Assembly: GCF_000156335.1 (NCBI RefSeq)
Contig: NZ_DS999215.1
Coordinates: 75,844-139,843 of the forward strand
Direction: 5' to 3'
From: Roseobacter sp. GAI101
Lineage (GTDB): Bacteria; Pseudomonadota; Alphaproteobacteria; Rhodobacterales; Rhodobacteraceae
DNA: 64,000 nt
In this document: piece after piece, positions 11,348-42,893 of the stretch
Layout: the number at the start of each line of letters is the position of its first letter
Position numbering within the stretch: the first letter of the stretch is position 1
Made by a program: the position numbers and the translations under genes
Notes under the pieces: model-generated
What the model saw: only the letters and a program-made list of their open reading frames with translations
Told to the model about the DNA's origin: nothing
Databases searched by the model: none

Positions 11348-11361
11348 TTGATATTTGTCAA
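11348..11361. promoter_or_regulatory. FNR/FixK-type box TTGATATTTGTCAA
   Basis: Exact match to TTGAY-N4-RTCAA, 50 bp before the Crp/Fnr gene start at 11298 and 147 bp before the ABC ATPase. It may serve either divergent unit; autoregulation is likely. Confidence 0.7.
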
Positions 11362-11444
11362 AGCTCGGGAACCGGTTTCCTGAAGGATCTGACCGCGTGG
11401 TGCGGGACAGCGCGCCGGTCGCTGCAACCCCCGTGCGAAAAGAA

Positions 11445-11458
11445 TTGAGATTGATCAA
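11445..11458. promoter_or_regulatory. FNR/FixK-type box TTGAGATTGATCAA
   Basis: TTGAG-N4-ATCAA, 50 bp before the start of the ABC ATPase gene at 11508. It differs from the FNR consensus only by G at the fifth position, a variant repeated at several other sites in this window. Confidence 0.6.
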
Positions 11459-11507
11459 TGGTGCCCTTCGCGGCCCCTTCTAGGATGGTTCGCAGCAGGA
11501 GAGAGCC

Positions 11508-12215
11508 GTGGCAGATATCATCTTCAGAACGCAAGGCGTGACCAAGATCTATGACACGGGCGGGGTAAAGGTATACGCATTGGACGGCGTTGATCTGGAG
11601 CTTTACAAAAGCGAATTGACCGTGCTGCTGGGCCCCTCGGGCAGCGGGAAATCGACGCTTTTGAACATCCTTGGCGGGCTGGATCATGCCACGGGCGGCC
11701 GCGTCTGGTTTGATCAGACCGAACTGACGAACATGTCCGATCGCGAGCTTACCAGATACCGGCGCGATCACGTCGGGTTCGTGTTCCAGTTCTACAATCT
11801 CGTGCCCAGCCTGACGGCGCGTGAAAACGTGCAACTTGTCACCGACGTGGCCCCTGACCCGATGCCGGCTGACGAAGCATTGGGGCTGGTCGGGCTGGGC
11901 AAGCGGATGGATCACTTTCCGTCCGAAATGTCGGGCGGGGAACAGCAGCGGGTTGCCATCGCGCGGGCCATCGCGAAACGCCCGCAGATCCTGTTATGCG
12001 ATGAACCCACGGGGGCCTTGGACAGCGCCACGGGGGTGCAGGTCCTTGAGGTTCTGCGCGACATCAACGACCGCTTTGGCACCACGACCGTGGTCATCAC
12101 CCATAATGCCGAAATTCAGCGCATGGCCCATCGGGTGATCTTCTTCCAAGACGGTAAAATCAGCGAAACGCGGGTCAATGAAACGCGGCTCGCCCCGTCC
12201 GAGATCGTGTGGTAG
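11508..12215 (+). CDS. ABC transporter ATPase, MacB/LolD/DevA type
   Basis: 235 residues with all ABC motifs: Walker [11 protein letters not shown]-loop FVFQFYNL, signature [14 protein letters not shown], Walker [13 protein letters not shown], and the switch His in VITHN. The [10 protein letters not shown] form is typical of the MacB/LolD/DevA subfamily, which drives export through FtsX-like permeases rather than substrate uptake. It is followed directly by such a permease (12221) and a membrane fusion protein (14589), forming a three-gene export system. Two FNR-type boxes precede it. The transported substrate is not evident from sequence; candidates are lipids, peptides or toxic compounds. 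Confidence 0.93.
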
Positions 12216-12220
12216 CCACC

Positions 12221-14584: not shown

Positions 14585-14588
14585 ACAC

Positions 14589-15865: not shown

Positions 15866-16219
15866 TCAGCTGCGGTCTTCGCCGTCCGGTAACTTCAGGG
15901 CTTTTGTGCCCATCTCGACCAGCTTGCTGGTCTCGGCTTGGTATTGGTCAATCGCTCTTTGCAAGTACTGGCCACGGATATGCTGAAGGTTCGCCACGTT
16001 CTTGCAGTGCAGAAGCTCGTGCTGAACCTTGACGTCTTCCTTGATGCGTTCAGCCACGAAATCGGCCATTTCCGCGCTCATGTCGCTGAGCGCTTCCACC
16101 CATGCGGTGCCCATGCCCATCATACTGCCAAATCCGGCCTTCTGAATCTGCGTCATCGCGCTGAAAGGATCGGTTGCTGAAGAGGTCTTGGGGGTTTGGG
16201 TCTGAGGTTTGTCGACCAT
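15866..16219 (-). CDS. Phasin-family protein
   Basis: 117 residues, mostly amphipathic helix without membrane segments. The core SAMTQIQKAGFGSMMGMGTAWVEALSDMSAEMADFVAERIKEDVK, followed by QHELLHCKNVANLQHIRGQYLQRAIDQYQAETSKLVEMG, matches the Phasin_2 family, proteins that coat polyhydroxyalkanoate granules or act as chaperone-like stress proteins. The N-terminal 17 residues are polar and disordered. A gene-internal ribosome site (GGAGGACC region) lies before the ATG, and an FNR-type box is 61 bp upstream. In other bacteria phasins are induced when oxygen limits growth and PHA accumulates, which suits the neighbourhood. Confidence 0.85.
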   Translation of the reverse strand: MVDKPQTQTPKTSSATDPFSAMTQIQKAGFGSMMGMGTAWVEALSDMSAEMADFVAERIKEDVKVQHELLHCKNVANLQHIRGQYLQRAIDQYQAETSKLVEMGTKALKLPDGEDRS

Positions 16220-16279
16220 CTCGGGTCCTCCGGTTGATGAAGTTACGGGTGCACGCTAGGCTGGAATGCCGCGGAGGCC

Positions 16280-16293
16280 TTGATATTGCTCAA
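16280..16293. promoter_or_regulatory. FNR/FixK-type box TTGATATTGCTCAA
   Basis: Reads TTGAG-CAAT-ATCAA on the minus strand, 61 bp before the phasin gene start. One position off the TTGAY-N4-RTCAA consensus. Confidence 0.55.
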
Positions 16294-16376: not shown

Positions 16377-17414
16377 TCACCGCACATAATAATACGCGGC
16401 GATGCTGGCCAGAAACGTCAACATCACAAGGATTGAATCAAGCCCGATTGACCCGATCCACGGCTTGCGCCGTACGATCAACCCGACCAGATAGATCGAC
16501 GTCACGGTCAGCCCAAAGGCCAGCGAAAGGCTGACCATCGGCGAGGTGTTTTGCAGGATCGGCCCCGAGCGGAACAGGATATCGGCTGGAAATACCAGCA
16601 CCAGCATGATCAGGTTGCTGCCGAATATATTCGAGATCGCCATGGTATAGGCCCCGATGCGCACGGCGGCGATGCTGGTGCTCAGCTCTGGCAATGACGT
16701 GGCACCTGCCAGCAATGTCACACCGATGAACCCGGTACCAAGCCCTGATTGATCCGCAATGCGGTCGGCAAACACGACAAGCAGCAGACCAAAGACCAGA
16801 ATGGCGATGCAGGCGAACACGGCCTGCCAGATCAGATTTACATTCCCCGCCTGCCCCAGCCCGGTCGGCGCAGGAAAGACCAGCGGTTCGGGGTCCGGCA
16901 GATCGACGGGCACCCAGTCACTGCTGGCATCATAGCGGCGCAACAGCCAGATCGCACCGCCATAGATCACCGCGATGCAAAGGCTGCCAAGGCCCACGCC
17001 GGCAAACACGAAGGTCTCTCCCAGATTGGTGATGATCAGGGTCACGGACAACAGCAGGACCAGCAATGTCGCCTCAAGCGCGTGGTTGGCCTTGCGGGGA
17101 TAGTTGGTGATCGGCCCGTGGGCCCAGAAATCTGCCATCGCCAGAATGGCCGTCTGCAAGGCGATGCCGCCGAACAGGTTGTTCAGCACCAGATTGCGCG
17201 ATTGCTGGGCTGCCGCGCTAAGGGTCGTCGCAACCTCTGGCAGTGACGTCGCCAATGACAAAAGCAGCAGACCTACAAGCGATTTGCCCAGCTTGAACCG
17301 GTCCGCCAGGGCATCTGCCAGATAGGCCAGCCGCGCCCCTGCAACCCAGACGCACGCGGCGCTAAAGGTGAAGAAGGCCAGACTTTGAAGCAGGGATGTG
17401 GCGGGGATATGCAT
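16377..17414 (-). CDS. CaCA-superfamily Na+/Ca2+ (cation/proton) exchanger
   Basis: 345 residues with about ten membrane helices in two inverted halves. The duplicated alpha-repeats are visible: SLATSLPEVATTLSAAAQQ in the first half and AGATSLPELSTSIAAVRIG followed by ISNIFGSN in the second. These acidic loop motifs form the ion-binding site of the Ca2+/cation antiporter superfamily. The first repeat keeps LNNLFGG in place of the usual N-x-x-GSN, a mild divergence. It probably extrudes calcium or another cation using an ion gradient. It is divergent from the M50 protease gene; one FNR-type box is 35 bp upstream of this start. Confidence 0.88.
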   Translation of the reverse strand: MHIPATSLLQSLAFFTFSAACVWVAGARLAYLADALADRFKLGKSLVGLLLLSLATSLPEVATTLSAAAQQSRNLVLNNLFGGIALQTAILAMADFWAHGPITNYPRKANHALEATLLVLLLSVTLIITNLGETFVFAGVGLGSLCIAVIYGGAIWLLRRYDASSDWVPVDLPDPEPLVFPAPTGLGQAGNVNLIWQAVFACIAILVFGLLLVVFADRIADQSGLGTGFIGVTLLAGATSLPELSTSIAAVRIGAYTMAISNIFGSNLIMLVLVFPADILFRSGPILQNTSPMVSLSLAFGLTVTSIYLVGLIVRRKPWIGSIGLDSILVMLTFLASIAAYYYVR

Positions 17415-17448: not shown

Positions 17449-17462
17449 TTGACATGGCTCAA
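17449..17462. promoter_or_regulatory. FNR/FixK-type box TTGACATGGCTCAA
   Basis: On the minus strand TTGAG-CCAT-GTCAA, 35 bp before the CaCA exchanger start. One position off TTGAY-N4-RTCAA; a position close to a core promoter is plausible. Confidence 0.55.
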
Positions 17463-17511: not shown

Positions 17512-17525
17512 TTGAGCGATATCAA
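17512..17525. promoter_or_regulatory. FNR/FixK-type box TTGAGCGATATCAA
   Basis: TTGAG-N4-ATCAA, 51 bp before the M50 protease start at 17576. Same TTGAG variant as at 11445. Confidence 0.6.
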
Positions 17526-17575: not shown

Positions 17576-18718
17576 ATGTTCTCAAATGCCGTAAAACTCT
17601 TTTCTCTCGGTGGTATCGAAATCAAGGTCGACCCCAGCTGGGTGATCATTGCCTCGTTGATAACGTGGAGCCTGTCGCGCCAGTATTTCCCCGAAGTCCT
17701 GCCCGAGGCGTCAAACCGAACATATCTGGCAATGGGATTGCTGGGGATGTTGGGCCTGTTCTCATCGCTATTATTGCATGAATTGGCGCATTCCGTCGTG
17801 GCAATACGTCTGGGGGTACCGATCAAAAGCATCACGTTGTTCATCTTCGGCGGCATGGCCGAACTCGGGAAGGAACCGACATCGGCGCGGGATGAATTCT
17901 GGATTGCGCTGGCGGGACCCGTCATGTCTTTTTGTCTGGCAACCGGATTTTGGACATTCGCCCAAGGGGTCTGGCTGGCCGCCGGACCTTTCGCGCTTGT
18001 CGAAGTGCTGTTTTATCTGGCGCTGATCAATCTGCTGCTTGCTCTTTTCAATCTGGTGCCCGCGTTTCCGCTGGATGGCGGGCGGGTGTTGCGGGCGTAT
18101 CTGTGGCACCGCAGCGGGGATGTGCTGGCGGCGACCCAGACCGCCGCGCGATCCGGTACGTTCTTCGGGTATCTTCTGATGGGGCTCGGGGTGTTGGCGC
18201 TTTTTCAGGGGGCGTTCGTCGCGGGCCTGTGGCAGCTGATGATCGGCGGGTTCGTCCTGATGGCGGCGCGGGCCAGCTATGTCTCGCAACTGGCCCGCAC
18301 CGTCTTTGAGGACAAGCCGGTAAGCGCGCTGATGTCGCGTCATCCGATCACCGTGGGCCCCAATATGACCCTGTTGGAACTGGCCAATCAGGTCATGCTG
18401 CGCCACGGTGTCAGCTTCGTGCCCGTGGTCGAGGGCAACGTTCTGCTGGGGCATGTGGATCAATCCGTCCTTGAAGGGATCGAGCATCAGAACTGGGGTA
18501 ATACGCGGGTTGGCGATGTCTTTTTCGGCCTTGACGAAAGCGTGATGATTGCGCCGGAATTGCCGATCCCGGACCTTCTCAAGCTGATCGCGGCGACGGG
18601 GCACCGCAAGTTCATGGTCGTGCTGGACCACCATCTGCTTGGCGTGATCACGCTGGCGGATCTGACGCGGTTTCTGGACTACAGCGCTGTTGCCGAGCCT
18701 CGGCAACGGCATGTTTAG
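17576..18718 (+). CDS. Site-2-type M50 metalloprotease with CBS domains
   Basis: 380-residue intramembrane zinc protease. The metal site HELAH is at residues 68-72 in the second or third membrane helix; the third ligand lies in NLVPAFPLDGGRVLRA (about 158-173). About six membrane helices occupy the first 240 residues. Two CBS domains follow (SALMSRHPITVGPNMTLLEL; then VMIAPELPIPDLLKLI), which may bind adenine nucleotides. This is the SpoIVFB-like/Rip3-like architecture found in many bacteria. A substrate cannot be named; anti-sigma factors or membrane regulators are usual. An FNR-type box precedes it, suggesting induction with the surrounding stress genes. Confidence 0.92.
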   Translation: MFSNAVKLFSLGGIEIKVDPSWVIIASLITWSLSRQYFPEVLPEASNRTYLAMGLLGMLGLFSSLLLHELAHSVVAIRLGVPIKSITLFIFGGMAELGKEPTSARDEFWIALAGPVMSFCLATGFWTFAQGVWLAAGPFALVEVLFYLALINLLLALFNLVPAFPLDGGRVLRAYLWHRSGDVLAATQTAARSGTFFGYLLMGLGVLALFQGAFVAGLWQLMIGGFVLMAARASYVSQLARTVFEDKPVSALMSRHPITVGPNMTLLELANQVMLRHGVSFVPVVEGNVLLGHVDQSVLEGIEHQNWGNTRVGDVFFGLDESVMIAPELPIPDLLKLIAATGHRKFMVVLDHHLLGVITLADLTRFLDYSAVAEPRQRHV

Positions 18719-18983: not shown

Positions 18984-20534
18984 ATGGGTAATGCCAAGGA
19001 AGACAGCGCGGTTTTACAAGCGATCCTTGAAGCTGCTGTGGATGCCATCATCGTGTCGGATCAGGACGGAACAATCCTGCGTGCCAATCCGGCAGCGGCG
19101 AGGTTGTTCAGGTATGACGTTGCCGAAATGGTCGGGAAAAGCGTGAACATGCTGATGCCCCGCGCGATGGCCGACATTCATGACGGCTTCATGTCGCATC
19201 ATCTTGAGACAGGTGAAAAGCGGATCATAGGGATCGGCCGCGATGTCGAGGGCAAGCGCAAGGATTGCTCTGTGTTTCCGCTCCATCTTTCCGTCGGCCA
19301 CTCAAAGATTGCCGGAAAGCGCATATTCATCGGGATTCTGCATGATCTCACCCACCGCAAAGCGACCGAAGACGCGCTTGCCCGGTCGCGGCGGTTGGAT
19401 GCGATCGGTCAGATGACCGGCGGGATTGCACATGATTTCAATAATCTGCTGACGGTGATCGTCGGCAATCTGGAATTGCTTGAAATGCGCGGGGCCAATC
19501 CGCAGCAACTCGCCTTGATCAGGGACGCGCTTGAATCGGCCGAACTGGGGGCGGATTTAACGTCCCGCTTGATGATCTTTGCGCGGAAAAGCCATCTTAA
19601 ACCCGAACGATCCGATCTGCGGCAGGTCTGCTCGGACACGCTGGCGCTGCTGGAGCGGACGGTGGGGGCGACCTTTGATATCAAAATCGACTTTGCCGAA
19701 AATCTGGACACGGTGATGATTGACCCCGTTCAGTTGAAGTCCGCTGTGATGAATCTTGCGCTGAATGCGCGTGATGCGATGGGGACCAGTGGCGAATTGC
19801 TGGTTTCGCTTCAGAATGTGACCATCGACGATACCTTTATGGCCGAGGAAACTGACATGGAGGCGGGCGATTACGTGCGCCTGTCCGTCAGCGACAACGG
19901 TGCCGGAATGAGCCTTGAGGCGCAGCGCCGCGCATTCGAACCATTCTTCACGACGAAGTCGGACAGCGGTGGAACGGGGCTGGGACTGGCGATGGTGTAC
20001 GGCTTCGTGCGTCAGTCGGGGGGGCATGTCAGACTGTACAGTGAACTGGGTCTTGGCACCAGTTTCGGCCTTTATTTCCCGGCACTGGCGCAAGCGGGTG
20101 GATATCAGGCGGGGGATGCCCGTAGCAATGCCGTAGTACCGCCAGCCCGCGGAAACGGGGAAACAATTCTGGTGGTCGAAGACAACCCCAAGGTGCGCAA
20201 ACTGTCGATTGAACGCGTCCGCGACCTCGGGTTTCTGGCTCTCGAGGCGCAAAGCGGCGATCAGGCATATCAGATCCTCAAAGACGGTGCGCATGTCGAT
20301 CTTGTGTTCTCGGATCTGGTCATGCCAGGCACGTTGAACGGCTATGACCTTGCTGCCAAGATCTCGCTGGAATTCCCACAGCTCAAGGTGCTGTTGACCT
20401 CTGGTTACGCCAGCGATGTCATCAAAACGAGTCTGGCCCGTGAACGGCCCTATGACGTCTTGCACAAGCCTTATCGTCAGTCCGAATTGGCGCAGAAGCT
20501 CAAAGTGCTTTTTAGCGATTGCTCTGCCGCCTGA
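18984..20534 (+). CDS. Hybrid histidine kinase with FixL-like PAS domain
   Basis: 516 residues, soluble. A PAS domain (about 8-125) contains ADIHDGFMSHHLETGEKRII and GIGR, close to the haem PAS of FixL: aligned to Bradyrhizobium FixL, His66 matches proximal His200, Ile81 matches Ile215 and Arg86 matches Arg220, with HLSVG for the HLSIG strand. The Arg206 and His214 positions are His and Arg here. The dimerisation region has phospho-acceptor His150 in GGIAHDFNN. The ATPase domain shows NLALNARDAM, DNGAGM and GGTGLGLAMV, and a receiver (393-510) has Asp444. It may sense oxygen, but haem binding is not proven. Its 3' end overlaps the convergent OmpR-type gene by 58 bp. It resembles the kinase part of the 36860-41326 protein. 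Confidence 0.88.
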   Translation: MGNAKEDSAVLQAILEAAVDAIIVSDQDGTILRANPAAARLFRYDVAEMVGKSVNMLMPRAMADIHDGFMSHHLETGEKRIIGIGRDVEGKRKDCSVFPLHLSVGHSKIAGKRIFIGILHDLTHRKATEDALARSRRLDAIGQMTGGIAHDFNNLLTVIVGNLELLEMRGANPQQLALIRDALESAELGADLTSRLMIFARKSHLKPERSDLRQVCSDTLALLERTVGATFDIKIDFAENLDTVMIDPVQLKSAVMNLALNARDAMGTSGELLVSLQNVTIDDTFMAEETDMEAGDYVRLSVSDNGAGMSLEAQRRAFEPFFTTKSDSGGTGLGLAMVYGFVRQSGGHVRLYSELGLGTSFGLYFPALAQAGGYQAGDARSNAVVPPARGNGETILVVEDNPKVRKLSIERVRDLGFLALEAQSGDQAYQILKDGAHVDLVFSDLVMPGTLNGYDLAAKISLEFPQLKVLLTSGYASDVIKTSLARERPYDVLHKPYRQSELAQKLKVLFSDCSAA

Positions 20535-21283
20535 ATCACCTTGACCTCGCAGGCAAACGAATAGCCGACGCCGCGTACCGTCTTGATCAATTTCGGGTCT
20601 GACGGGTCACGCTCGATTTTCTTGCGCAGACGGGCGATCTGGTTGTCGATGGCACGGTCCATAGGGTTCCACTCCAGACCTCCCGTCAGGTCCATCAGTT
20701 GATCGCGGGACAGGACGCGCTTGGGTCTGTTGAGAAACACATCAAGCAGTTTGAAATCGCCACTGGTCAGGCTACACTCGGCACCGTTGCGGTCTATCAA
20801 TTTCATCTGGTCCGGAATAGCGATCATGCCATCAAAGGAAAAATAGACGCTGTCAGAGGAATCATCCTGGCTGACGGCCTCCGTCCCGGCGGGTTCCTTC
20901 GTACTCTCATACTTCGCTGCGCTTCGGCGCAGGACGCTTCTGATCCGGGCAAGAACCTCTCGGACATGAAAGGGTTTGGTGATGTAATCATCCGCCCCGA
21001 CTTCAAGCCCGACAACACGGTCGATCACATCCTCCTTTCCGGTCACCATGATGATGGGAAGATGTGATGTCTTCCTGATTTTCCGCGCCAGATCGACGCC
21101 GCTTTCGGACCCCAGATTCAAATCCAGGGTGATTAGCATGATGTCCGAGCTTGCAATCGCCGCCATGACGTCGCTTGCATTTTCCGCTTCCAGTACACCA
21201 AAACCGTCACCCTCCAGCACGTTGCGCAGCAGGTTTCTGATTTTAGGATCGTCATCGACAACAAGAATTTTCTGGTTAGTCAT
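20477..21283 (-). CDS. OmpR/PhoB-family response regulator
   Basis: 268 residues. The receiver (about 5-118) has the acidic pair VVDDDPK, the phospho-acceptor Asp in ITLDLNLG, the Thr in MVTGKE and the Lys in YITKPFH. After a linker of about 30 residues the winged-helix domain carries LTSGDFKLLDVFLNRPKRVL, SRDQLMDL and DNQIARLRKKIE, then VRGVGYSF. The C-terminal 30 residues (after SFACEV) extend past the usual end and overlap the kinase gene on the other strand. The ATG has GGAGG just upstream. Its partner may be one of the two hybrid kinases nearby; no dedicated kinase is adjacent in the same operon. It is divergent from the FixK-like regulator at 21457. Confidence 0.92.
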   Translation of the reverse strand: MTNQKILVVDDDPKIRNLLRNVLEGDGFGVLEAENASDVMAAIASSDIMLITLDLNLGSESGVDLARKIRKTSHLPIIMVTGKEDVIDRVVGLEVGADDYITKPFHVREVLARIRSVLRRSAAKYESTKEPAGTEAVSQDDSSDSVYFSFDGMIAIPDQMKLIDRNGAECSLTSGDFKLLDVFLNRPKRVLSRDQLMDLTGGLEWNPMDRAIDNQIARLRKKIERDPSDPKLIKTVRGVGYSFACEVKVIQAAEQSLKSTLSFCANSD

Positions 21284-21456
21284 ATGGCCTCCATCTACCC
21301 CTGAAGGGGCTGGTCGAAGAAGTTGATTAAATATAAATTGTGTCTTGGAAATTGAGAAGCATTGTTACAAATTAATACAAATACCCATACCGTAAGATTA
21401 ATCCGAATTACATTCACCAATCAAGGTGACCTCAAATCAAATAGGAGGTTCACCAT

Positions 21457-22131
21457 ATGTATGTCACGATTCCCAATGAACACGGTACCCCTTGTGCATT
21501 TACTCCGCTTGTTTCCACCCTTCCCCAAACCGCAGAAACCCGCCTGAAAACCGGTGCTTATCTGTACTATGAAGGCGACGAGGTTGAGTGGCTTTATCAA
21601 GTGAACAGCGGTGTTTTGCGGCTGACGCGCCTGCTTTCCGATGGTCGTCGTCAAGTCATTGCTTTCGGCTATCCTGGTGATATCGTTGGGTTTCCTTCTG
21701 CAAATATACATCATACCGACTGCGAAGCATTGACCGATGTGCGCCTGCAACCTTTCCGGCGTTCCGCCCTCGAGAGTGGTGAGGGCGACCCCCAGTTGCA
21801 TACTGCCCTTTTGCAGGCTGCATTGCGCGAAATCAGCGGGATGCAGGATCACTTCATGATGCTTGGCCGGAAGTCGGCGAGTGAAAAGTTGGCCTCTTTT
21901 TTATGTGTACTGGCCGAAAGGGTAGGAATAGACTTAGGTGCATATCGAAGTGTAACGCTCCCGATGAGCCGATCCGACATCGCCGACTTTCTGGGTTTGA
22001 CGACTGAAACCGTTAGCCGGACCTTTACCCAGTTGCGCAAAAGCAAGATCATCGCGATCGACAACATCTACACCATTATCATCCAGCGCCCGACTGCCTT
22101 GCTTGAATTGTCGATGGGCGATTGTGACTGA
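21457..22131 (+). CDS. FixK/Dnr-type Crp/Fnr regulator
   Basis: 224 residues with a sensor barrel (LKTGAYLYYEGDEVEWLYQVNSG) and a C-terminal helix-turn-helix (MSRSDIADFLGLTTETVSRTFTQLR). The recognition helix E-T-V-S-R is the FNR/FixK form that reads TTGAT half-sites. The FNR iron-sulfur cysteines are absent; only one Cys (residue 13) is in the N-terminal tail, so oxygen would be sensed elsewhere, as in FixLJ-FixK circuits. AGGAGG lies 8 bases before the ATG. The upstream 170 bp is markedly AT-rich. A stem-loop at 22163-22194 ends the gene. It is the best candidate for the protein that binds the boxes of this island. Confidence 0.92.
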   Translation: MYVTIPNEHGTPCAFTPLVSTLPQTAETRLKTGAYLYYEGDEVEWLYQVNSGVLRLTRLLSDGRRQVIAFGYPGDIVGFPSANIHHTDCEALTDVRLQPFRRSALESGEGDPQLHTALLQAALREISGMQDHFMMLGRKSASEKLASFLCVLAERVGIDLGAYRSVTLPMSRSDIADFLGLTTETVSRTFTQLRKSKIIAIDNIYTIIIQRPTALLELSMGDCD

Positions 22132-22220: not shown

Positions 22221-22652
22221 CTAGGGGGCGGCCCAAAGATCACGGATCGGCTCGGACAACGTGGCGCGAAGGTCTTCGACCTCTCCCCTGCTGAGGCGGT
22301 TGTTCAGCAGATCAAACACGCATTTGATGTCTTCACGGCCCCGGTATTCTTCCGCATCGCCCATCTGGGCCGCGATGAAGGCGCTGAAATCGTTGACATG
22401 GCGTTCCTTGATCGGCGTGTGCTTGGGCATCCAGCCTTCAAAGAAGAACCCGCGTATCAGCAGGGGCAGTTGCGCGGACATCTGGGCCACTTCGTTCACC
22501 ACCAGATGATCCCGCACGTGGCGCAAGGTAACCCGCAACAGGCGCAACACACTGCGTTTCGACGACCAGTCAAGGCGCTCGGCCAGTTCGTTGATCCACT
22601 CGTGGGTCAGATGGACGCTGTTGTCGATCACTTCCAAACCTTGGGCTGTCAT
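22221..22652 (-). CDS. DUF2267-family protein
   Basis: 143 residues from the ATG at 22650-22652, chosen over one 6 bp upstream because AGGAG is then 7 bases away. It is all-helical with no membrane segment or signal. Landmarks are VHLTHEWINELAERLDWSSKRSVLRLLRVTLRHVRDHL, then LPLLIRGFFFEGW and the second half with FDLLNNRLSRGEVEDLRATLSEPIRDLW. This two-part pattern is the DUF2267 family, of unknown biochemical role, often found beside universal stress proteins and in low-oxygen gene sets. It is 20 bp after the stop of the gene at 22673-23854, so the two probably form one leftward operon. Confidence 0.85.
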   Translation of the reverse strand: MTAQGLEVIDNSVHLTHEWINELAERLDWSSKRSVLRLLRVTLRHVRDHLVVNEVAQMSAQLPLLIRGFFFEGWMPKHTPIKERHVNDFSAFIAAQMGDAEEYRGREDIKCVFDLLNNRLSRGEVEDLRATLSEPIRDLWAAP

Positions 22653-22672
22653 GGGCATTCTCCTGTGTAAGG

Positions 22673-23916: not shown

Positions 23917-23930
23917 TTGACTGGGATCAA
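23917..23930. promoter_or_regulatory. FNR/FixK-type box TTGACTGGGATCAA
   Basis: Exact TTGAY-N4-RTCAA, extended to GATTGA...TCAATC on both sides. It is 67 bp before the universal stress protein start (23998) and 62 bp before the divergent membrane protein start (23854), so it may control both. Confidence 0.75.
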
Positions 23931-27795: not shown

Positions 27796-27876
27796 TTGGA
27801 ATGCGAGCGGGCTGTGCCAGTTTGCACAATACCGCCTGCGCTGATTGGCCGGTGCCACTTTGGAATGGAGAACAAC

Positions 27877-29249: not shown

Positions 29250-29286
29250 AAATATCTCACTTTCTTAGGACGACTGATACCAGCGG

Positions 29287-30171: not shown

Positions 30172-30266
30172 CGTTTTCTCCATTCCGGGCTTTGGTCAAA
30201 AGCGAGAGCCGCCGAATGCGGACTTGGGTGACCAGATCACACTGGGTTGAAATGCCCCGCCTCGGG

Positions 30267-30280
30267 TTGAGATTTATCAA
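30267..30280. promoter_or_regulatory. FNR/FixK-type box TTGAGATTTATCAA
   Basis: TTGAG-N4-ATCAA on the plus strand (TTGATAAATCTCAA on the minus), 96 bp before the persulfide dioxygenase-like gene. Confidence 0.6.
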
Positions 30281-31187: not shown

Positions 31188-31421
31188 CTAGACTGGAAAA
31201 TTGCCGTTTTCAAAAGGGTCATACATCGGGTCCTCCGGATGATTGGAGGGCTCTGGAACTTCCGGCGACGCGGGGTCCGTCGCGGGGTCCATTGGCTGTG
31301 GATCCTCTGGCAGTCCCGGTTCCTTTTCGGGATCGACGGGCATGGGGGCTTCCTTGGGGGGATCTTTTGGCGTTTCTTCGGGCGGGTCGTCAGATGTGGG
31401 CCGTGGCGTTGACTGGGTCAT
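31188..31421 (-). CDS. Small proline/acid-rich disordered protein
   Basis: 77 residues, about one third proline, with many Asp and Glu and no hydrophobic core (PPEETPKDPPKEAPMPVDPE is typical). It should be disordered. AAAGGA stands 6 bases before the ATG, and a perfect FNR-type box lies 56 bp upstream of the start, so it is probably a real, regulated gene. The Pro-x-Asp/Glu repeats do not match a family I know. It heads a leftward run with the DUF6544-like and persulfide genes. Confidence 0.6.
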   Translation of the reverse strand: MTQSTPRPTSDDPPEETPKDPPKEAPMPVDPEKEPGLPEDPQPMDPATDPASPEVPEPSNHPEDPMYDPFENGNFPV

Positions 31422-31476: not shown

Positions 31477-31490
31477 TTGATCAGCATCAA
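31477..31490. promoter_or_regulatory. FNR/FixK-type box TTGATCAGCATCAA
   Basis: Perfect TTGAT-N4-ATCAA, the canonical FNR site, 56 bp before the proline-rich gene start. It lies after the stop of trxC. Confidence 0.75.
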
Positions 31491-31539: not shown

Positions 31540-31974
31540 TCAAAGATGTTGGCGCACGAATGCTTCGATATCCGCCGCAGGGCGGGCACCGGACAGCCGC
31601 GCGATTTCCTTGCCCTTGGCATAGAGGATCAACAGCGGAATGCCCCTGATCTGCAACCGTTGGGAAACAGCCTGAAACTGCTGCGTGTCGATCTTGGCAA
31701 AACGGGCCTTGGACCGCAACGCTTTGGCCGCCGTCGCGAATTCGGGGGCCATCGTCCGGCACGGGCCGCACCAGGGGGCCCAGTAATCAATGATCAACGG
31801 CAGGTCGTCCGTCACCGTGGCTTTGTCATGCTGACGTTCCCCGATTGCAGCGACATCGCCAGTGACCAGCAGGGCACCGCATTTCGCGCATTTCGGACTG
31901 GCGTCAAGCTTGGCAGCGGGAAAACGGTTCGCCTGCCCGCAGGACAGACAGCTTAGTTTGAGAGTCTCCTTCAT
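31540..31974 (-). CDS. trxC: Thioredoxin TrxC (thioredoxin 2)
   Basis: 144 residues from the ATG at 31972-31974; AAAGGA is 9 bases upstream, while an ATG 9 bp earlier abuts the ribosome site. The N-terminal zinc-binding part has two CxxC pairs (LSCLSCGQ and SPKCAKCGA), the mark of TrxC. The thioredoxin fold follows with the active site WAPWCGPCRTMAPEF and the cis-Pro in IRGIPLLILY. It reduces disulfides in the cytoplasm, especially under oxidative stress. A perfect FNR-type box lies in the shared upstream region with the Lon-like gene. Confidence 0.93.
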   Translation of the reverse strand: MKETLKLSCLSCGQANRFPAAKLDASPKCAKCGALLVTGDVAAIGERQHDKATVTDDLPLIIDYWAPWCGPCRTMAPEFATAAKALRSKARFAKIDTQQFQAVSQRLQIRGIPLLILYAKGKEIARLSGARPAADIEAFVRQHL

Positions 31975-32114
31975 CGTCTGCATTCCTTTCCGCCATTGAG
32001 CTGTGTCTGTGATCTGGCCGCCTAAAGCCTCGTCCATCCCGCGTTTGTTACGGCAGGATCGCCGTGTCCATTTGACGACGATCAATCCGCCCCCGGAAAC
32101 AGGAACAATGCGAA

Positions 32115-32128
32115 TTGATACGTGTCAA
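32115..32128. promoter_or_regulatory. FNR/FixK-type box TTGATACGTGTCAA
   Basis: Exact TTGAY-N4-RTCAA, between divergent trxC (141 bp from its start) and the Lon-like protease gene (116 bp from its start). Confidence 0.7.
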
Positions 32129-32243: not shown

Positions 32244-34754
32244 ATGGAAATTGATGTGGTCGGCAAAGCACGCAAAAAGTCAGCCCTCCCCGCTGGGTTA
32301 TCGTTCAAGCGTCTGCGCGCGGAATGTGACCCCGAAACGCTTGGGTTCGACACCACCGCATCGCTGAAGCCGGCACGCGGGTTGACCGGACAGGATCGTG
32401 CGATTGATGCGATCAAATTATCCGCCAATATCGACCACAAGGATTTCAATCTATACGTTTTGGGCCGCGAGGGCACCGGGCGGCATACTGCGGTTGCCAG
32501 ACTGCTGTCGGATGCCGCCGCAACGCGCCCGCTTCCGTGCGACTGGGTCTACGTCAACAATTTTGATGCACCACACAAACCCCACGCGATGAAACTCACA
32601 CCCGGCACCGCAGCCGAGTTGAAACTGGCGATGCAGAGCCTGGTTGATGATCTGGCCAATGACATACCCGCCCTGTTTGAATCCGAGGACTATCAAACGC
32701 AGCGCCGCGCCATCGAGGAGGAGTTCGGCCAAAAGCACGAAGAACCCATCGCAGAATTCTCTGAACGCGCACACGCGCAGAACGTTGCATTGTTGCGGAC
32801 CCCGATGGGGTTCATGTTGTCGGCGATTGTGGACGGTAAACCCATCAAGCCGGAGGTGTACGAGGCGTTGCCCACAGAGCAACGCAAGGCAATCGACACT
32901 AAGATCGAGGAATTGCAAAAGCAACTGGCAGATATCCTCAAGCATGGCCCGCAACTGGAAAAGGAACACCGGCACCGGATCGAAGAGTTGCATGCCGCGA
33001 TGGCCGAGCAGATCGTTTCGATCCGGATGAAAGAGGTCGAAACCCAGTTCGCGCAGGCCGACAACGTCTTGGCCTATCTGGAAAATGTGCGTGTGGACAT
33101 GATTTCCAACGCCGAACTGTTCCTGATGTCGGTGACCAGACCCAATGGGGGGCCGTTCCCCGAAGTCATCCATAAGTACCATCAGGACCCGCGTTTTGAC
33201 CGATACGCAGTTAATATCATGGTCTCGCACGACGAAGCCCCGCCCGCCGCACCGATTGTGACCGAGGAAATGCCATCACTTGGTCATCTGACAGGCCGGA
33301 TCGAATACGTCTCCGAGATGGGTACCCTGTCGACCAATTTCACGCTGATCAAACCCGGTGCGCTGCACCGCGCGAATGGCGGCTATCTGGTACTGGATGC
33401 CAACCGCATCCTGTCCGAACCCTACGCGTGGGATACGCTCAAGCGATGTCTGCAAAGCCAGTCCATCTCCATCACCTCGCTAGCCGAACGCCTGAGCCTG
33501 TCGTCAACGGTGACGCTTGAACCCGACCCCATCCCGCTGGATATCCGGATCATTCTGGTCGGTGGCAGGCGGCTTCACATGTTGCTGCTGCATCTCGATC
33601 CGGAATTCGGCAAGTTGTTCAAGCTTGAGGCTGATTTCGAAGATGATCTGCCGCGCACGGCCAAAAACACCCGCGCACTGGCACGGATTGTGGCCGGATA
33701 TGCGAGCAGGGAAAACCTCAAGCCGCTGACAGCCGCCGCCGTTGCCGCCTTGCTGGATCACGCTGTCCGGCTTGCCGGCGACAGCACGAAACTGACGCTT
33801 GAGCTTTCCAAGTTGACGGATGTCATGCGAGAGGCTGATTTTTACGCCACGGGCCACAAGCAAGATCTGATTTCCGACGATGATATCGACCATGCGATCA
33901 AGCAATCCGTGCTGCGGGGATCGCGCATCAAGGAACGGATGCAAGAGGCCGTGACGCGCAAAACCATCCTGATCGACGTGAAAGGACAGTCGGTCGGCCA
34001 GATAAACGGCCTGTCCGTTGTCGGGATCGGCAAGAACCCCTTTGGGCGGCCATCGCGCATCACGGCCCGCGTGCGCATGGGCAGCGGCAGGCTGGTCGAT
34101 ATCGAACGCGAGGTCGAACTCGGCGGTCCGCTGCACTCCAAGGGCGTGCTTATTCTGGGCAGCTATCTCGCCTCGCATTATGCGCTGGATGTCCCGATGT
34201 CGTTGCATGCAAGTCTGGTGTTCGAACAAAGCTATGGCGGCATAGACGGGGATAGCGCGTCGTCAGCCGAACTTTATGCCCTGCTTTCGGCATTGTCCGG
34301 CGTGTCGATCCGCCAGGGCTTTGCCGTGACGGGGTCGGTGAACCAGAACGGTGATGTGCAAGCCATCGGCGGCGTCAATGAAAAGATCGAGGGGTTTTTC
34401 GACATCTGCATGGCGCAAGGCCTGACCGGCGATCAGGGCGTTCTTATCCCGGCGTCGAATGTCGATCATCTCATGCTGCGCCGCGACGTCGTCGAGGCAG
34501 CCAAATCAGAGGATTTCCGTGTCATACCCGTCAAAACGATTGATCAGGGGATAGAAATTTTGACAGGGACGCCTGCGGGCAAACGTGGCCGTCGCGGGAA
34601 GTTTCCGGAAGACAGCATCAACGGCAAAGTCGAAGCACAATTACATGCCTTTGCGGAAACCCGCCGCCAGTTCGGTGCCAAAGACGATGGCGGCGCAGAT
34701 GCGGGGCCGGATATGGATGCCGACATCGGCACAGACTTGGGGGCGGGCCGATGA
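32244..34754 (+). CDS. Lon-like ATP-dependent protease (LonB/YcbZ type)
   Basis: 836 residues. An AAA+ module with a long helical insertion (about 150-300, e.g. EYVSEMG follows later) precedes a C-terminal S16 protease domain. The catalytic dyad is Ser671 in GDSASSAELYALLS and Lys714 in GGVNEKIEGFF, 43 residues apart exactly as in E. coli Lon. The P-loop region reads LGREGTGRHTA, where Arg stands at the position of the usual Lys, as in many proteins of this Lon-related group. The last 50 residues are acidic and disordered. It probably degrades misfolded or regulatory proteins. A perfect FNR-type box is upstream and the next gene overlaps its stop by 4 bp. Confidence 0.9.
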   Translation: MEIDVVGKARKKSALPAGLSFKRLRAECDPETLGFDTTASLKPARGLTGQDRAIDAIKLSANIDHKDFNLYVLGREGTGRHTAVARLLSDAAATRPLPCDWVYVNNFDAPHKPHAMKLTPGTAAELKLAMQSLVDDLANDIPALFESEDYQTQRRAIEEEFGQKHEEPIAEFSERAHAQNVALLRTPMGFMLSAIVDGKPIKPEVYEALPTEQRKAIDTKIEELQKQLADILKHGPQLEKEHRHRIEELHAAMAEQIVSIRMKEVETQFAQADNVLAYLENVRVDMISNAELFLMSVTRPNGGPFPEVIHKYHQDPRFDRYAVNIMVSHDEAPPAAPIVTEEMPSLGHLTGRIEYVSEMGTLSTNFTLIKPGALHRANGGYLVLDANRILSEPYAWDTLKRCLQSQSISITSLAERLSLSSTVTLEPDPIPLDIRIILVGGRRLHMLLLHLDPEFGKLFKLEADFEDDLPRTAKNTRALARIVAGYASRENLKPLTAAAVAALLDHAVRLAGDSTKLTLELSKLTDVMREADFYATGHKQDLISDDDIDHAIKQSVLRGSRIKERMQEAVTRKTILIDVKGQSVGQINGLSVVGIGKNPFGRPSRITARVRMGSGRLVDIEREVELGGPLHSKGVLILGSYLASHYALDVPMSLHASLVFEQSYGGIDGDSASSAELYALLSALSGVSIRQGFAVTGSVNQNGDVQAIGGVNEKIEGFFDICMAQGLTGDQGVLIPASNVDHLMLRRDVVEAAKSEDFRVIPVKTIDQGIEILTGTPAGKRGRRGKFPEDSINGKVEAQLHAFAETRRQFGAKDDGGADAGPDMDADIGTDLGAGR

Positions 34755-35548
34755 ACACGGTGCGCCGTCCCGGCCTGCGGATTCTCGTGGGTGCAGGGTC
34801 ATATGCAGATGCCGCAGCAGGGTTGCGGATCATCGAACATTTGCCAAGCACCTTCTTTGCTGGCCTTGGCGGCATCCTCGTCGAAGAGGTCGACATTTTC
34901 GCGACATGTCAGATCCCAGACCAACGCATCGTTCTGCTTAGCGGCAAGACGGCATTGGCCCCAAGCCATGCGCAACTGCACACTCTCTTGAGGGCCGATG
35001 CACGTGCGTTCCGACGTATTCTGGCGCGGGCAGCCGGTCCGAGCGGAGCGCAATGGGCCTTCATGCAAGACAAGGGGGAACTTGTCAGGACCGCGCTGCG
35101 CGCCGCAGCAGGATGGGATGTTCTTGTGCTGGGGTATCGCCAAATTCACAAGATTCCGGGCAAGATCATTCTCTTGCAAAACTCCGGCACCCCAAGTGCC
35201 GAAATGGAAGAAGCATCCAGTCGCCTTTCACACCAACTGTCGGCGCAGCGATTTGTATTTTCAGTTCGGGAGAACGGTGATGATGGTCTCGACGCGCCGC
35301 CTTCAACAGCCTTTCAATTCAAGACCCTAGATGACGCCCTCGCCGCTCTTGGGCGTCAGAATGCACAGGCCGTGCTGATGGACTTTGCGCGGGGTCCTAT
35401 TCGGGATCAGACCGATCTGTTGCGTCTTCTTGAAGCGGCGCGATGTCCGGTGGTCGTGTTTAGTGCGTCAAACAACCCTTCTCTGCTTGAGCACAACACG
35501 CATATTCCCCCCGCCCCTGCCAAACCAGAGCGCGATGATGACGGCTGA
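34751..35548 (+). CDS. Hypothetical protein, possibly UspA-like fold
   Basis: 265 residues with no clear family. It starts within the Lon-like stop (ATGA) and its own stop lies inside the next gene's start region, so the three genes are translationally coupled. The N-terminal half has LRILVGAGSYADAAAGLRIIEHLP, a pattern reminiscent of universal stress proteins, and a second half with VLMDFARGPIRDQTDLLRLLEAARCPVVVFSAS, where a strand ends in CPVVVF as in UspA. An ATP-binding Gly motif is not obvious. The last 25 residues are Pro-rich. I treat it as a diverged tandem Usp, with low certainty. Confidence 0.5.
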   Translation: MNTVRRPGLRILVGAGSYADAAAGLRIIEHLPSTFFAGLGGILVEEVDIFATCQIPDQRIVLLSGKTALAPSHAQLHTLLRADARAFRRILARAAGPSGAQWAFMQDKGELVRTALRAAAGWDVLVLGYRQIHKIPGKIILLQNSGTPSAEMEEASSRLSHQLSAQRFVFSVRENGDDGLDAPPSTAFQFKTLDDALAALGRQNAQAVLMDFARGPIRDQTDLLRLLEAARCPVVVFSASNNPSLLEHNTHIPPAPAKPERDDDG

Positions 35549-36794
35549 CCCCGACCCAGGCCCGCCATCGCAGACCACGCCCCCCACCACACTGCGGCGC
35601 GCCATTACGCTGCCGCTTTTGGTGTTTTACGGATTGGGGGTCACGATCGGGGCGGGCATCTATGTGCTTGTCGGCGCGACGGCAGTGCAGGCCGGGATCC
35701 ATGCGCCGGTGTCCTTTCTTGTCGCCGCTTTCGTCATGCTGTTCAGCGCCAGCAGTTTTAGCGAACTTTCAGGCCGTTTCCCCCAAAGCGCAGGCGAAGC
35801 CGCCTATGTCGAAGCGGCCTTCAGGTTGCCGTCCCTGACAGTGCTGACAGGGGCCTTGTTGCTTGTCGCCGGGACCATTTCCGCATCGGCGATTGCGGTT
35901 GGCTGTGCGGGCTATGTCGCGTTGCTTGTGCCGCTGCCCCTTTGGTTGATCATCACGCTGACTGTTCTGTTTTCCGGGCTGGTCGCCGCGTGGGGTGTCG
36001 TTGAATCGGTAAAATTTGCCGCAGTCCTGACCATCGTCGAAGTGCTGGGACTGGTCGTCGTCGTGATCGCTGGCATATGGCACCAACCGGAGATCATCCT
36101 TGCCCTGCCGTCCGTTTTACCCGACCCGTCGGACACGCCCGCGCTGGCTTCAATCGGCATGGCCAGCCTGCTCGCCTTCTTTGCCTTCATCGGGTTCGAT
36201 GGTATGGTCAACATCGTCGAAGAAACCGAAAATCCCGCCCGCAACATGCCGTTGGGCATCTTCATCACCTTGATGATCACAACGCTGCTTTACTTTTCGG
36301 TGGCGGCCATTGCCGTGTTGCTTCTGCCTCTCGAAGACTTGGGCCGTTCGGCCGCGCCTATCAGCCTGCTGTTCGAAAGCCTTACCGGGATGTCGCCGAT
36401 CGCGATTACGCTTGTCGCGATTGCGGCGACGCTGAACGGGGTCATCATTCAGGCCATCTTATCGGCACGCATCATCTATGGCATGGCCAAGGTAGGCCGT
36501 CTGCCCAAGGGGCTGGCCCAGCTGAATGCCCGCACACGCACGCCCTTGCTGGCGACCGCGCTGGTGACCGGCTGCACCCTGGTCTTTGCGGTGTTCTTCC
36601 CCATCGGCATTCTGGCTGAACGCACATCGCAGGTCGTGCTTGTGGTCTTTATCCTGATCAACCTGTCGCTCTTGCGGATCAAATGGCGCGGCGATCCGGC
36701 ACCTGACGGGATATTCATCGTGCCGGCTATTGTACCCGTGATCGGCCTTGTCACCTGCATCGCCATGCTTGTCGGGCCGGTCCTTATCGGCTGA
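35535..36794 (+). CDS. APC-family amino acid permease
   Basis: 419 residues, about 12 membrane helices. The first helix carries the family's substrate motif GLGVTIGAGIYVLVG; helix 6 has FFAFIGFDGMVNIVEETENPARNMP, typical of the APC superfamily (cationic amino acid transporter-like). Of the two adjacent ATGs at 35535 and 35538 either may be used; the start overlaps the previous gene by 14 bp. The substrate could be arginine/ornithine because arginine deiminase and carbamate kinase lie 9 kb away and no arcD is seen, but this is inference. Confidence 0.88.
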   Translation: MMTADPDPGPPSQTTPPTTLRRAITLPLLVFYGLGVTIGAGIYVLVGATAVQAGIHAPVSFLVAAFVMLFSASSFSELSGRFPQSAGEAAYVEAAFRLPSLTVLTGALLLVAGTISASAIAVGCAGYVALLVPLPLWLIITLTVLFSGLVAAWGVVESVKFAAVLTIVEVLGLVVVVIAGIWHQPEIILALPSVLPDPSDTPALASIGMASLLAFFAFIGFDGMVNIVEETENPARNMPLGIFITLMITTLLYFSVAAIAVLLLPLEDLGRSAAPISLLFESLTGMSPIAITLVAIAATLNGVIIQAILSARIIYGMAKVGRLPKGLAQLNARTRTPLLATALVTGCTLVFAVFFPIGILAERTSQVVLVVFILINLSLLRIKWRGDPAPDGIFIVPAIVPVIGLVTCIAMLVGPVLIG

Positions 36795-41326: not shown

Positions 41327-41520
41327 GTCGTCTCAGGTTCCTGCCAAAAAGGCTCGTATTGCAGTTCTAATGTAAGACGTCCACGTCATCTGGGTCTCCC
41401 GATCTTTAAAGAAGACTGCTTTGGTGCAAAAAAGTAAAGGAATACCGAAGGATATCTAGCAATAGGTATCAATTTGGCCACGGGTCCGCCGGGCTGCGTC
41501 CAGGGTGAAAACATCGCCTT

Positions 41521-42081
41521 TCAGCGCGGCATGACAGCGGCCAGCAGGACAAGGGCTATGCCGGAAGATAACAGGTCAATTCCCAATAGAATACCCAGCA
41601 AGACAGTCGATGCCTCGGGTAGAATCGCAAAGATCAAAGCGGCCAACCCGACGCTGATCAGACCCGACACCAAAACCCAGCCCGCCCCCTTAGTCCCGCG
41701 CATGTCGAAAGCGAACGCGCTTTGGGAAAGACCGGTCAGCAACAGGATCGCCGCAATCAGGAACGTCAGCGTCACCAGCCCTGCTGACGGAAAAAACAAA
41801 AGATACAGTCCGGCGCACAGCGGGAACATCCCCGCCACCAGCATCCAGACAAAGACCCGCGTTCCCTGAAAGGACAATGCCATGAGCACGGCAAGAAGGC
41901 CGCCGAACGTCAGCACAGCCCCGATCAGAAAATCCACCGCATAGGAACTGACGACCGGCATGATGATGGCAAGGATGCCAAGCACGATCATCAAGACGCC
42001 GGTTCCCGACAATCGCCGTCGCCAGTGCTGGATGGCGACAACGACGGGTCTGTGCGGGGTTGCGGGATATTGGCGGTCCAT
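41521..42081 (-). CDS. HdeD/DUF308-family membrane protein
   Basis: 186 residues from the ATG at 42079-42081, with six membrane helices in paired form: GTGVLMIVLGILAIIMPVVS, FLIGAVLTFGGLLAVLMAL, MLVAGMFPLCAGLYLLFFP and others. Conserved Pro-containing turns between helices mark the HdeD family, acid-resistance membrane proteins in E. coli with unclear mechanism. An ATG upstream (42252) would add a long polar extension, and I reject it. It has the same direction as the stress membrane protein at 42230-42814. Confidence 0.85.
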   Translation of the reverse strand: MDRQYPATPHRPVVVAIQHWRRRLSGTGVLMIVLGILAIIMPVVSSYAVDFLIGAVLTFGGLLAVLMALSFQGTRVFVWMLVAGMFPLCAGLYLLFFPSAGLVTLTFLIAAILLLTGLSQSAFAFDMRGTKGAGWVLVSGLISVGLAALIFAILPEASTVLLGILLGIDLLSSGIALVLLAAVMPR

Positions 42082-42229
42082 TTGGTGTGCCCTTGCTCTC
42101 TCTTGAAGTGGTTGATTGCCAGTCTGTGCTATGATGGTCAGATTTGGGCTGTCATCGCGGCCTGAAAACGCCGTGCCTGCGTTCCCTTTCGCGAAGTCCT
42201 TTCGGCCCAAGCTTCGACGGTGCCACGCA

Positions 42230-42814
42230 TCATTCGCTCCAGGCGTGGACATGTACGTCGTGTCCCGAGTGTGCTTTCATGATCTTGACCGCAAGGTCTT
42301 CCCGTTCCTTGTCACGGGTGCGGACCCACATCAGAATGCCGCCGTGCCGGATCTGGTTTTCGTAATATTCCCTGTGATGCTGCCCGGCCCGTCTGGCAAG
42401 CAGGGTCCCGATGACGGCGGCGGGGCTTCCTCCGATGGCGATGGCGGCGATCGACGCGGCCAGGGTGCTTGCTGGCGTCAGCAGCGCCGTCATGGCAATC
42501 GCGGACCCCACGAAAAAGAAACCGCCGGCAATGGCCCCTTCAAGCTCTCCGATGGCCTCCTCCGAGACAAAATTCGCACGTGGGGCCTTCGGGTCATCCT
42601 CAAGCTCGGTGGCGCGCCAATACGCCCGCCCAAGCTTTTCCTGCAACGCTTCCTGGCTTCCCAAAAGACTGATGTCCGAATGGTGAAACCCGACTGCGCG
42701 CAGATCATAGAATGCGGCCTGCTGGGCTTCGAACGTGTCAAACACGCCGACAGCTTCGGGAATGTTGATGTAGGTCGTCTTGTGCTCTTTCGGTTTTGTC
42801 TCAAGGTCGGCCAT
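42230..42814 (-). CDS. General stress-type protein with glycine zipper membrane segment
   Basis: 194 residues. The N-terminal domain (INIPEAVGVFDTFEAQQAAFYDLRAVGFHHSDISLLG) resembles the YflT/general stress domain in which a protein is recognised by residues around F..x..A...L...G. The middle has hydrophobic Gly/Ala-rich helices (AIAGGFFFVGSAIAMTALLT, SIAAIAIGGSPAAVIGTLLA), and the end returns to a polar domain (GGILMWVRTRDKEREDLAVKIMKAHSGHDVHVHAW). Similar proteins are annotated as heat-induced or low-oxygen stress proteins. An FNR-type box is 66 bp upstream. Confidence 0.7.
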   Translation of the reverse strand: MADLETKPKEHKTTYINIPEAVGVFDTFEAQQAAFYDLRAVGFHHSDISLLGSQEALQEKLGRAYWRATELEDDPKAPRANFVSEEAIGELEGAIAGGFFFVGSAIAMTALLTPASTLAASIAAIAIGGSPAAVIGTLLARRAGQHHREYYENQIRHGGILMWVRTRDKEREDLAVKIMKAHSGHDVHVHAWSE

Positions 42815-42879
42815 TCCGGTCTCCGGCGTGTGCGCAATGGGTGTCGCCGTTAACTATGCGTCCCATGGGGATCACCGGA

Positions 42880-42893
42880 TTGAGATGTATCAA
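42880..42893. promoter_or_regulatory. FNR/FixK-type box TTGAGATGTATCAA
   Basis: TTGAG-N4-ATCAA between the stress protein start (42814) and coxC (43013). Same variant as at 11445 and 30267. It may serve either unit. Confidence 0.6.

Follow-up and report, generated by a model that had tools for sequence, protein, structure and literature searches.

Conserved FNR/FixK-type boxes and an hFixL/FxkR/FixK-like regulatory cassette in a putative stress-survival gene cluster of Roseobacter sp. GAI101

We analyzed a 64,000-nucleotide stretch of the Roseobacter sp. GAI101 genome (hereafter, the window), which comprises positions 75844-139843 of contig C7. Judged from its sequence, the part from window position 11299 to 42979 (the island) is a stress-survival gene cluster marked by conserved FNR/FixK-type boxes, or anaeroboxes. 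The new part is the identification of a regulatory cascade in roseobacters: a hybrid FixL-like kinase (hk1) and a FixK-type protein (CrpB) are firmly identified from sequence comparison, as is an operator of the K-box form before crpB, and the FxkR kinship of the response regulator (rr) is likely. We consider it quite probable, though well short of certain, that the island is a low-oxygen stress-survival set with its own hFixL/FxkR/FixK-type switch, with CrpB and the chromosomal FnrL protein acting on the boxes. The assembly has a total of 4.52 Mb and includes contigs C7 (259,980 bases), C8 (306,904), and C9 (3,794,933).

For the box census, the exact pattern TTGAN6TCAA was scored, the expectation was taken from shuffled sequences, and the reversed pattern was the genome-wide control. 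A sequence-only reading of this DNA had proposed one FNR/FixK-type regulon and had named equal box density in shuffled DNA as evidence that would count against it. The shuffles resulted in 1.12 expected boxes, with a largest value of 4, against 14 exact boxes in the window. Twelve of these span 11348-42893, eleven being intergenic and one (39255) coding. Several gene starts were estimated and the intergenic assignment depends on them, as the boxes at 11348, 23917, and 32072 sit in longer open frames. The intergenic DNA of the island (2,898 bp) harbors 11 exact boxes against 0.051 expected, with a maximum of 2 in 2000 simulations, and its coding DNA (28,783 bp) harbors one. The sequence-only reading had listed eleven sites as intergenic. 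Ten of them (every entry below except 27782 and 32072) are exact and intergenic by the estimated starts, the site at 27782 has one mismatch, and the exact box at 32072 had been left out. With one mismatch allowed, the window shows 44 sites against 23.3 expected; therefore, 27782 carries little weight alone. The sites are listed below, with the strand where one was assigned.

11348-11361: anaerobox TTGATATTTGTCAA, between crpA and the ABC exporter gene; not kept in the related genome G044
11445-11458, forward: anaerobox TTGAGATTGATCAA, 63 bases before abcA; at -62 in G044
16280-16293, reverse: anaerobox before the phasin gene (15866-16219)
17449-17462, reverse: anaerobox TTGACATGGCTCAA, before the CaCA exchanger gene (16377-17414)
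17512-17525, forward: anaerobox before the M50-CBS protease gene (17576-18718), at -64
23917-23930: anaerobox common to the 22673-23854 gene (-76) and usp1 (-81)
27782-27795, forward: degenerate anaerobox TTGATCTGGATCAT, one mismatch, before usp2 (27859-28722, start estimated)
30267-30280, reverse: anaerobox before the dioxygenase-type gene pdo, at -97
31477-31490, reverse: anaerobox TTGATCAGCATCAA, before the proline-rich protein gene
32072-32085: anaerobox between trxC and lonB
32115-32128, forward: anaerobox before lonB
42880-42893: anaerobox between the 42230-42814 gene (-79) and the MHYT-LytTR gene at 42980

The box at 32072 is taken as intergenic because the true trxC start is probably inside its frame, as the position of the zinc ribbon suggests.

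Outside the window, box density was judged from genome-wide pattern counts and selected stretches. The genome of 4.52 Mb contains 133 exact boxes, against 24 for the reversed pattern. The 31.5-kb interval of the island boxes, which was picked post hoc, contains 12 against 0.84 at the genome's own rate, and two flanking stretches on the same contig (16.5 and 19 kb) contain none. The comparison with the replicon proposed in the sequence-only reading thus places the island above the genome rate, but this density is not unique, with 7 boxes in the 19 kb of the cco/FnrL locus and 12 at C8:118-146 kb, where two 20-kb stretches were counted. The term self-contained is not supported in its strict sense, since the window contains only 14 of the 133 boxes and leaves 119 elsewhere, the FnrL gene is chromosomal, and the genome G068 has a boxed lonB without a CrpB match at E 1e-50.

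That the boxes are chance matches or functionless relics is hardly credible. Among the 14 exact matches, two are coding, at 39255 within a CheB/CheR-kinase gene and at 56637 within a beta-helix protein gene, and some boxes are not kept in relatives. However, the shuffle and intergenic counts exclude chance, and the conserved position and sequence of the boxes argue against relics. For this comparison, 20 stretches from 12 genomes were sampled. Gene order, which had been proposed as a check in related genomes, was partly kept in G044, G042, and G016. The boxes common to these three sister genomes hold their distance to the start codon within 1-2 bases, and approximately half of the surrounding DNA is changed. 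With the window counted, four of four genomes place the box at -80 to -82 relative to usp1 and at -76/-77 relative to the divergent gene (22673-23854); the CaCA box has an identical sequence at -47/-48 in all four genomes scored. The pdo box lies at -97 in two of two genomes (window and G042), and the abcA box lies at -62/-63 in two of two (window and G044). The M50 box is placed at -64 in the window and -63 in G042 (two of two), is one base off in G044, and is absent in G016. The usp2 box is degenerate yet lies at -77 in both the window and G042, and 27782 gains support because of this kin site.

In the aligned relatives, the box of the divergent gene and usp1 keeps 8/8 box bases in three of three, and the other columns match at 48-60%. 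The CaCA/M50 box pair keeps 15/16, 16/16, and 11/14 bases, the M50 box being lost in G016; the pdo box keeps 8/8, the usp2 box 7/8, and the crpA/abcA pair 12/16, with the crpA-side box lost in G044. The G half-sites are kept at the abcA, pdo, M50, and CaCA boxes, a pattern that might point to a TTGAG class of boxes recognized by CrpB and not by FnrL, though we offer this as no more than a suggestion. In a wider set, usp1 has a box at -75 to -149 in 9 of the 15 readable loci near crpB, and an exact box lies within 260 bases upstream of lonB in 12 of the 18 orthologues whose upstream DNA was readable. The latter count joins 12 of 13 in a first set (none in G033) with zero of five in a second (G032, G088, L026, L071, and L072), and the truncated L024 was excluded. 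The distant lonB homologues (L027-L069) have 0-3 boxes per locus, overall near chance.

The mean score for a -10-like hexamer peaks 22 bases past the box, at 3.2 of 8 over 14 box-gene directions that we chose. Against shuffled segments, this peak has p 0.0002 at that offset and 0.005 over any offset. The ten one-way boxes showed no -10-like peak on the side that faces away from their genes. In FNR class II promoters, activation proceeds from a site near -41.5, and the spacing from box to -10 signal in the island fits class II activation, as in FNR-activated promoters. Taken with box density, place, and conservation, this spacing leaves the proposed FNR/FixK-type regulon well supported at the level of predicted sites.

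The four elements of the regulatory cassette are as follows:

18984-20534, forward: hk1, hFixL-like hybrid kinase with FixL-type PAS, HisKA, HATPase, and receiver domains
20477-21283, reverse: rr, FxkR-like OmpR-type response regulator
21364-21379, forward: K-box-like repeat GTTACAAATTAATACA, 93 bases before crpB
21457-22131, forward: crpB, FixK-type CRP/FNR regulator without the FnrL cysteines, with the recognition helix ETVSR

The sequence-only reading had not recognized a cascade, although all three hFixL-FxkR-FixK-like parts are present; its mention of gas-sensing kinases agrees with the PAS match of hk1. The PAS domain aligns with the Sinorhizobium meliloti FixL structure 1d06 (E 1.4e-27) and also with 1dp6. 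It keeps the histidine of HDG and the arginine of RIIGIxR, which we take to be the heme-binding and heme-sensing residues His194 and Arg214 of FixL. The rhizobial comparison loci were Rhizobium leguminosarum pRL9 (L153), S. meliloti LMB1 (L156), and Rhizobium sp. 007 (L154). The hk1 protein was 40-44% identical to two rhizobial hFixL proteins over 95-98% of its length, receiver included. The rr protein was 45-48% identical to FxkR9 of pRL9 and two rhizobial kin (45% to FxkR9 itself), against 23-38% to 13 OmpR-type paralogues of its own genome. The regulator tree comprised 33 rows (10 of the 13 own paralogues, 16 of the 32 cassette regulators read, and seven more), and the roseobacter cassette regulators formed one group (100/99).

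The best solved-structure match of CrpB was FixK2, and the protein was 35-39% identical to the FixK of pRL9 and LMB1 versus 34% to FnrL; for the Rhizobium sp. 007 CRP-type protein, no match was reported. Each of the six cysteine columns of FnrL is kept by at most one of 54 CrpB rows. The crpB sample comprises 58 loci, namely the best 30 of 38 genus matches and 28 of 31 family matches, own genome included. An ETVSR-type helix occurs in 53 of these loci, in a search that required that helix, an rr match in 56, and an hk1 match in 50. A cysteine at CrpB alignment column 150 was found in 54 of 54 CrpB-type rows and is absent from FnrL at that place; a redox switch through this residue is possible.

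The K-box of FxkR is described as GTTACA-N4-GTTACA in passages of PMC7888657 and PMC4999443. The aligned DNA upstream of crpB in 17 genus members has a kept repeat of the form GATACA-N4-GATACA, and the window repeat has GTTACA as its first half and AATACA as its second. Of the 58 loci, 53 have the pattern NNTACA-N4-NNTACA in the 200 bases preceding crpB (52 at -80 to -95, one at -113), and 43 have the strict RWTACA form. The opposite strand showed the K-box form in none of the 58 loci, and shuffled sequences showed it at a rate of 0.5%. The 200 bases before crpB are free of exact anaeroboxes in all 58 loci. As a control, the pattern found the fixK9a site of pRL9, missed the published fixK9b site, and gave no hit in L154 or L156; some K-boxes are therefore missed, as the fixK9b case shows. 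The identification of the operator as a K-box form before crpB is firm as a sequence assignment. The K-box as the mark of a wider regulon was set aside, since the strict pattern has 3 matches in the 4.5-Mb genome.

From these parts, we propose the following order of events. As oxygen falls, the hybrid FixL-type heme-PAS kinase would signal to the FxkR-like regulator, which would bind the K-box at 21364 and turn on crpB, a FixK-type activator. CrpB, joined by the chromosomal FnrL at still lower oxygen, would bind the TTGAN6TCAA boxes and thereby activate class II promoters that serve genes for stress, protein quality, redox, and energy storage. That hk1 binds heme, that phosphate passes along the cascade, that the K-box and the boxes are occupied, and that low oxygen induces the genes is what we infer from these comparisons of sequence.

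The hFixL-FxkR-FixK cascade of Rhizobium etli, R. leguminosarum, and S. meliloti has the same hybrid FixL kinase with a receiver, an OmpR-type regulator, a FixK-type protein without Fe-S cysteines, a K-box form before fixK, and anaerobox neighbors. In the roseobacter version (Roseobacteraceae), by contrast, hk1 and rr are convergent and rr and crpB divergent, the K-box halves are often GATACA, and CrpB reaches only the modest identity to rhizobial FixK given above. Moreover, the cassette lies among stress genes, and no fixNOQP or nif gene was found among the scanned window proteins. Another parallel is the plasmid pB cluster of S. meliloti LMB1, where a kinase, a FixK, and a regulator stand beside two universal stress protein (Usp), ornithine carbamoyltransferase, metallo-beta-lactamase-fold, and trypsin-like protease genes; it has 7 exact anaeroboxes in 16.7 kb, whereas its gene list differs and no K-box was found by the pattern used. 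A 2016 survey of 50 Alphaproteobacteria placed, in the part bearing on this point, the origin of hFixL-FxkR-FixKf in Rhizobiaceae and assigned only FnrN to Rhodobacterales (PMC4999443). No paper title among the matches listed reports the cascade or the island in roseobacters, which does not establish absence from print. If true, the presence of the cascade parts and operator among roseobacter stress genes, and not among nitrogenase or oxidase genes, would revise the view of the origin and first role of the cascade.

Several results weigh against this reading. The kinship of rr to FxkR is likely, but the FxkR assignment is not firm: the rhizobial FxkR proteins are sister to the roseobacter cassette regulators with a support of only 92/59, and a Gemmobacter regulator (L157), which stands beside another kinase, is equally close (45% to rr, 46% to FxkR9). 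CrpB is below the NCBIfam FixK cut-off (152 of 300 bits). The K-box is missing from 5 of the 58 crpB promoters. A complete rr is lacking at three loci (L176, L179, and L186), and L179 and L186 are among these five. L127 and L138 have a box approximately 200-290 bases before crpB, in the rr frame. In the window, an exact box within 260 bases is lacking for hk1, rr, crpB, arcA, and the DUF2267, DUF6544, HdeD, and CheB/R-kinase genes. Among relatives, 6 of the 15 usp1 genes near crpB and 6 of the 18 lonB orthologues lack an exact box, so the lonB box is not universal within the family; the box-free lonB genes include L026, those of the Leisingera plasmids L071 and L072, and those of the same-genus G032 and the same-class G088. 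Only 2 of the 14 -10-like hexamers score 6 of 8 or more. Boxes are also retained in G044, where CrpB is represented by a 54% relative encoded on a different contig.

The most serious of the other explanations, which we hold to be somewhat unlikely, is that FnrL alone drives the boxes and the FixL-like/FxkR-like/FixK-like cassette is a neighbor with other targets. FnrL, which scores above the NCBIfam equivalog cut-off, is encoded on C9 within the 19 kb that contain 7 boxes as well as genes with COX1, FixO, FixP, and FixG matches; the boxes of this cco/fnrL locus could be used by FnrL or FixK. The boxed lonB of G068 favors this explanation too. In addition, Usp genes are FnrL targets in Dinoroseobacter shibae according to part of PMC5398030, and the Rhodobacter sphaeroides FnrL sites from chromatin immunoprecipitation look alike, TTGAC half-sites included, in the portion of PMC2908626 that describes them. 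On the other hand, the cassette lies within the island, crpB stands beside a boxed usp1 in the 9 readable loci mentioned, CrpB carries an FNR-type helix, and lonB and CrpB co-occur.

A lonB-like match (E 1e-100) was found in 34 of 145 genomes, own included, 12 of the others being of the same genus. CrpB relatives occur in 35 of 62 genus genomes at E 1e-30 and in 30 of 295 family genomes at 1e-50, the own genome being counted in both. CrpB of at least 63% identity is present in 10 of the 13 lonB-bearing genus genomes versus 7 of the 49 others (p 3e-5), a count that assumes that all 62 genus genomes lay within the 145 scanned for lonB. The strength of this association is lessened in that the 63% cut was picked afterwards and ancestry was uncorrected; any CrpB match at E 1e-30 gives 12 of 13 versus 23 of 49. 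The wiring of the cascade to the island is likely, yet it is unproven in that FnrL can read these boxes too; for the same reason, CrpB and FnrL probably share the island boxes. The FnrL regulon of R. sphaeroides and D. shibae has the same box, and its targets include, in the sources' relevant sections, Usp genes and dksA; here, the island genes are accessory (lonB in 13 of 62 genus genomes) and a second, FixK-type regulator is among them. The system offers a test of two oxygen thresholds, of a heme kinase and the Fe-S protein FnrL, on one box set.

Two further explanations concern the regulator. The boxes might instead serve a nitric-oxide regulator of the Dnr/NnrR type, the island then being a denitrification-stress set, which is improbable: Dnr-type proteins may recognize similar boxes according to part of PMC5398030, but CrpB matches FixK2 (120 bits) far above DNR (30 bits), and no nir, nor, or nos gene is among the 50 scanned window proteins, except that the beta-helix protein outside the island (54773-56974) also matches the Pfam NosD model. 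The sequence-only reading had counted two Crp/Fnr proteins as candidates; CrpB (21457) has the FNR-type recognition helix, whereas CrpA (10630) has R-E-V-V-A-R, which we presume is not of FNR type. CrpA (10630-11298) as the island regulator was set aside as very improbable. The crpA gene stands at the head of the island, and its divergent promoter contains two boxes, but the helix, the named matches (CRP- and NtcA-like, below cut-off), and the neighboring YeeE-type sulfur transport genes all speak against this role. CrpA also has a C-x5-C stretch, CVLTTAC, found as well in a chromosomal paralogue (L005), and lies beside the YeeE-type genes (9450-10592); a sulfur-sensing role would be a guess.

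A second cluster, on C8:110-150 kb, has 12 boxes, all within 118-146 kb. Its genes encode two Usp, Hsp20, an Acg-family oxidoreductase (above cut-off), a PRTase-erythromycin-esterase protein, and AAA_33, and further a DegP-like protease, a PhaC-like protein, a beta-CASP nuclease, and a Ca2+-type ATPase (below equivalog cut-offs). The likeness to the mycobacterial DosR dormancy set, as put forward in the sequence-only reading, holds for the stress content (Acg, Hsp20, and Usp) but fits this cluster better than the window. DosR/DevR of mycobacteria and OsdR of Streptomyces similarly place stress proteins under an oxygen-responsive two-component system. The most DosR-like genes, however, lie outside the window on C8, and the regulator families (CRP/FNR and OmpR), sensor domain, and DNA box are different. 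DosR is of NarL type and DosS of GAF type; here, the regulator has Trans_reg_C (OmpR type) and the kinase sensor is PAS, so that neither is of the DosR or DosS/DosT type. Acg and Usp are given as members of a minimal dormancy regulon in part of PMC11876180. It is possible, but a tentative idea, that the roseobacter hFixL-FxkR-FixK cascade is the master switch of a dormancy-like program over at least two box-rich accessory clusters (the island and C8:118-146 kb), as an alphaproteobacterial counterpart of DosR.

The other genes of the island are as follows:

22221-22676, reverse: DUF2267 protein gene, adjoining crpB in a number of relatives
22673-23854, reverse: protein without a Pfam match, earlier labeled bactofilin-like
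23998-24837, forward: usp1, universal stress protein, start estimated
25015-26271 and 26387-27292, forward: arginine deiminase and carbamate kinase, without an exact box of their own
28818-30183, reverse: Blh-type phosphatase-like protein and metallo-beta-lactamase-fold protein, the latter nearest the sulfur dioxygenase Blh, below cut-off
31188-31421, reverse: proline-rich protein of 77 aa, read from the translation
31540-32085, reverse: thioredoxin 2 (trxC) frame
32244-36794, forward: lonB-like protease, unknown protein, and amino acid permease
42230-42814, reverse: protein of unknown family; an HdeD-like DUF308 gene (41521-42252) comes next

RepC, sought to test C7 as a plasmid, was found on contig C6 only, and the plasmid status of C7 is thus unproven. 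Megablast gave no plasmid match to window positions 11300-36200, in a search that may omit records near the own genome, and Rfam and tRNA scans of the window gave no match. No ornithine carbamoyltransferase was found among the scanned proteins near the arginine deiminase and carbamate kinase genes; the comparable cluster of S. meliloti LMB1 (L156) has one. Outside the island, a 3-hydroxyacyl-CoA dehydrogenase frame close to the cox (CO dehydrogenase) genes has an exact box, 52529, at its 5' end. In five distant loci of Alphaproteobacteria, most of them from Parvibaculum, a single exact box follows lonB at approximately 0.7-0.8 kb (L033:13327, L037:13282, L041:13250, L061:13237, and L039:3602), and this repeated place hints at a kept site. 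Finally, the same-genus lonB neighborhoods L113 (G033) and L115 (G025) have 9 and 6 boxes per 20 kb, respectively, and their gene content differs; therefore, boxed modules may reshuffle between genomes.

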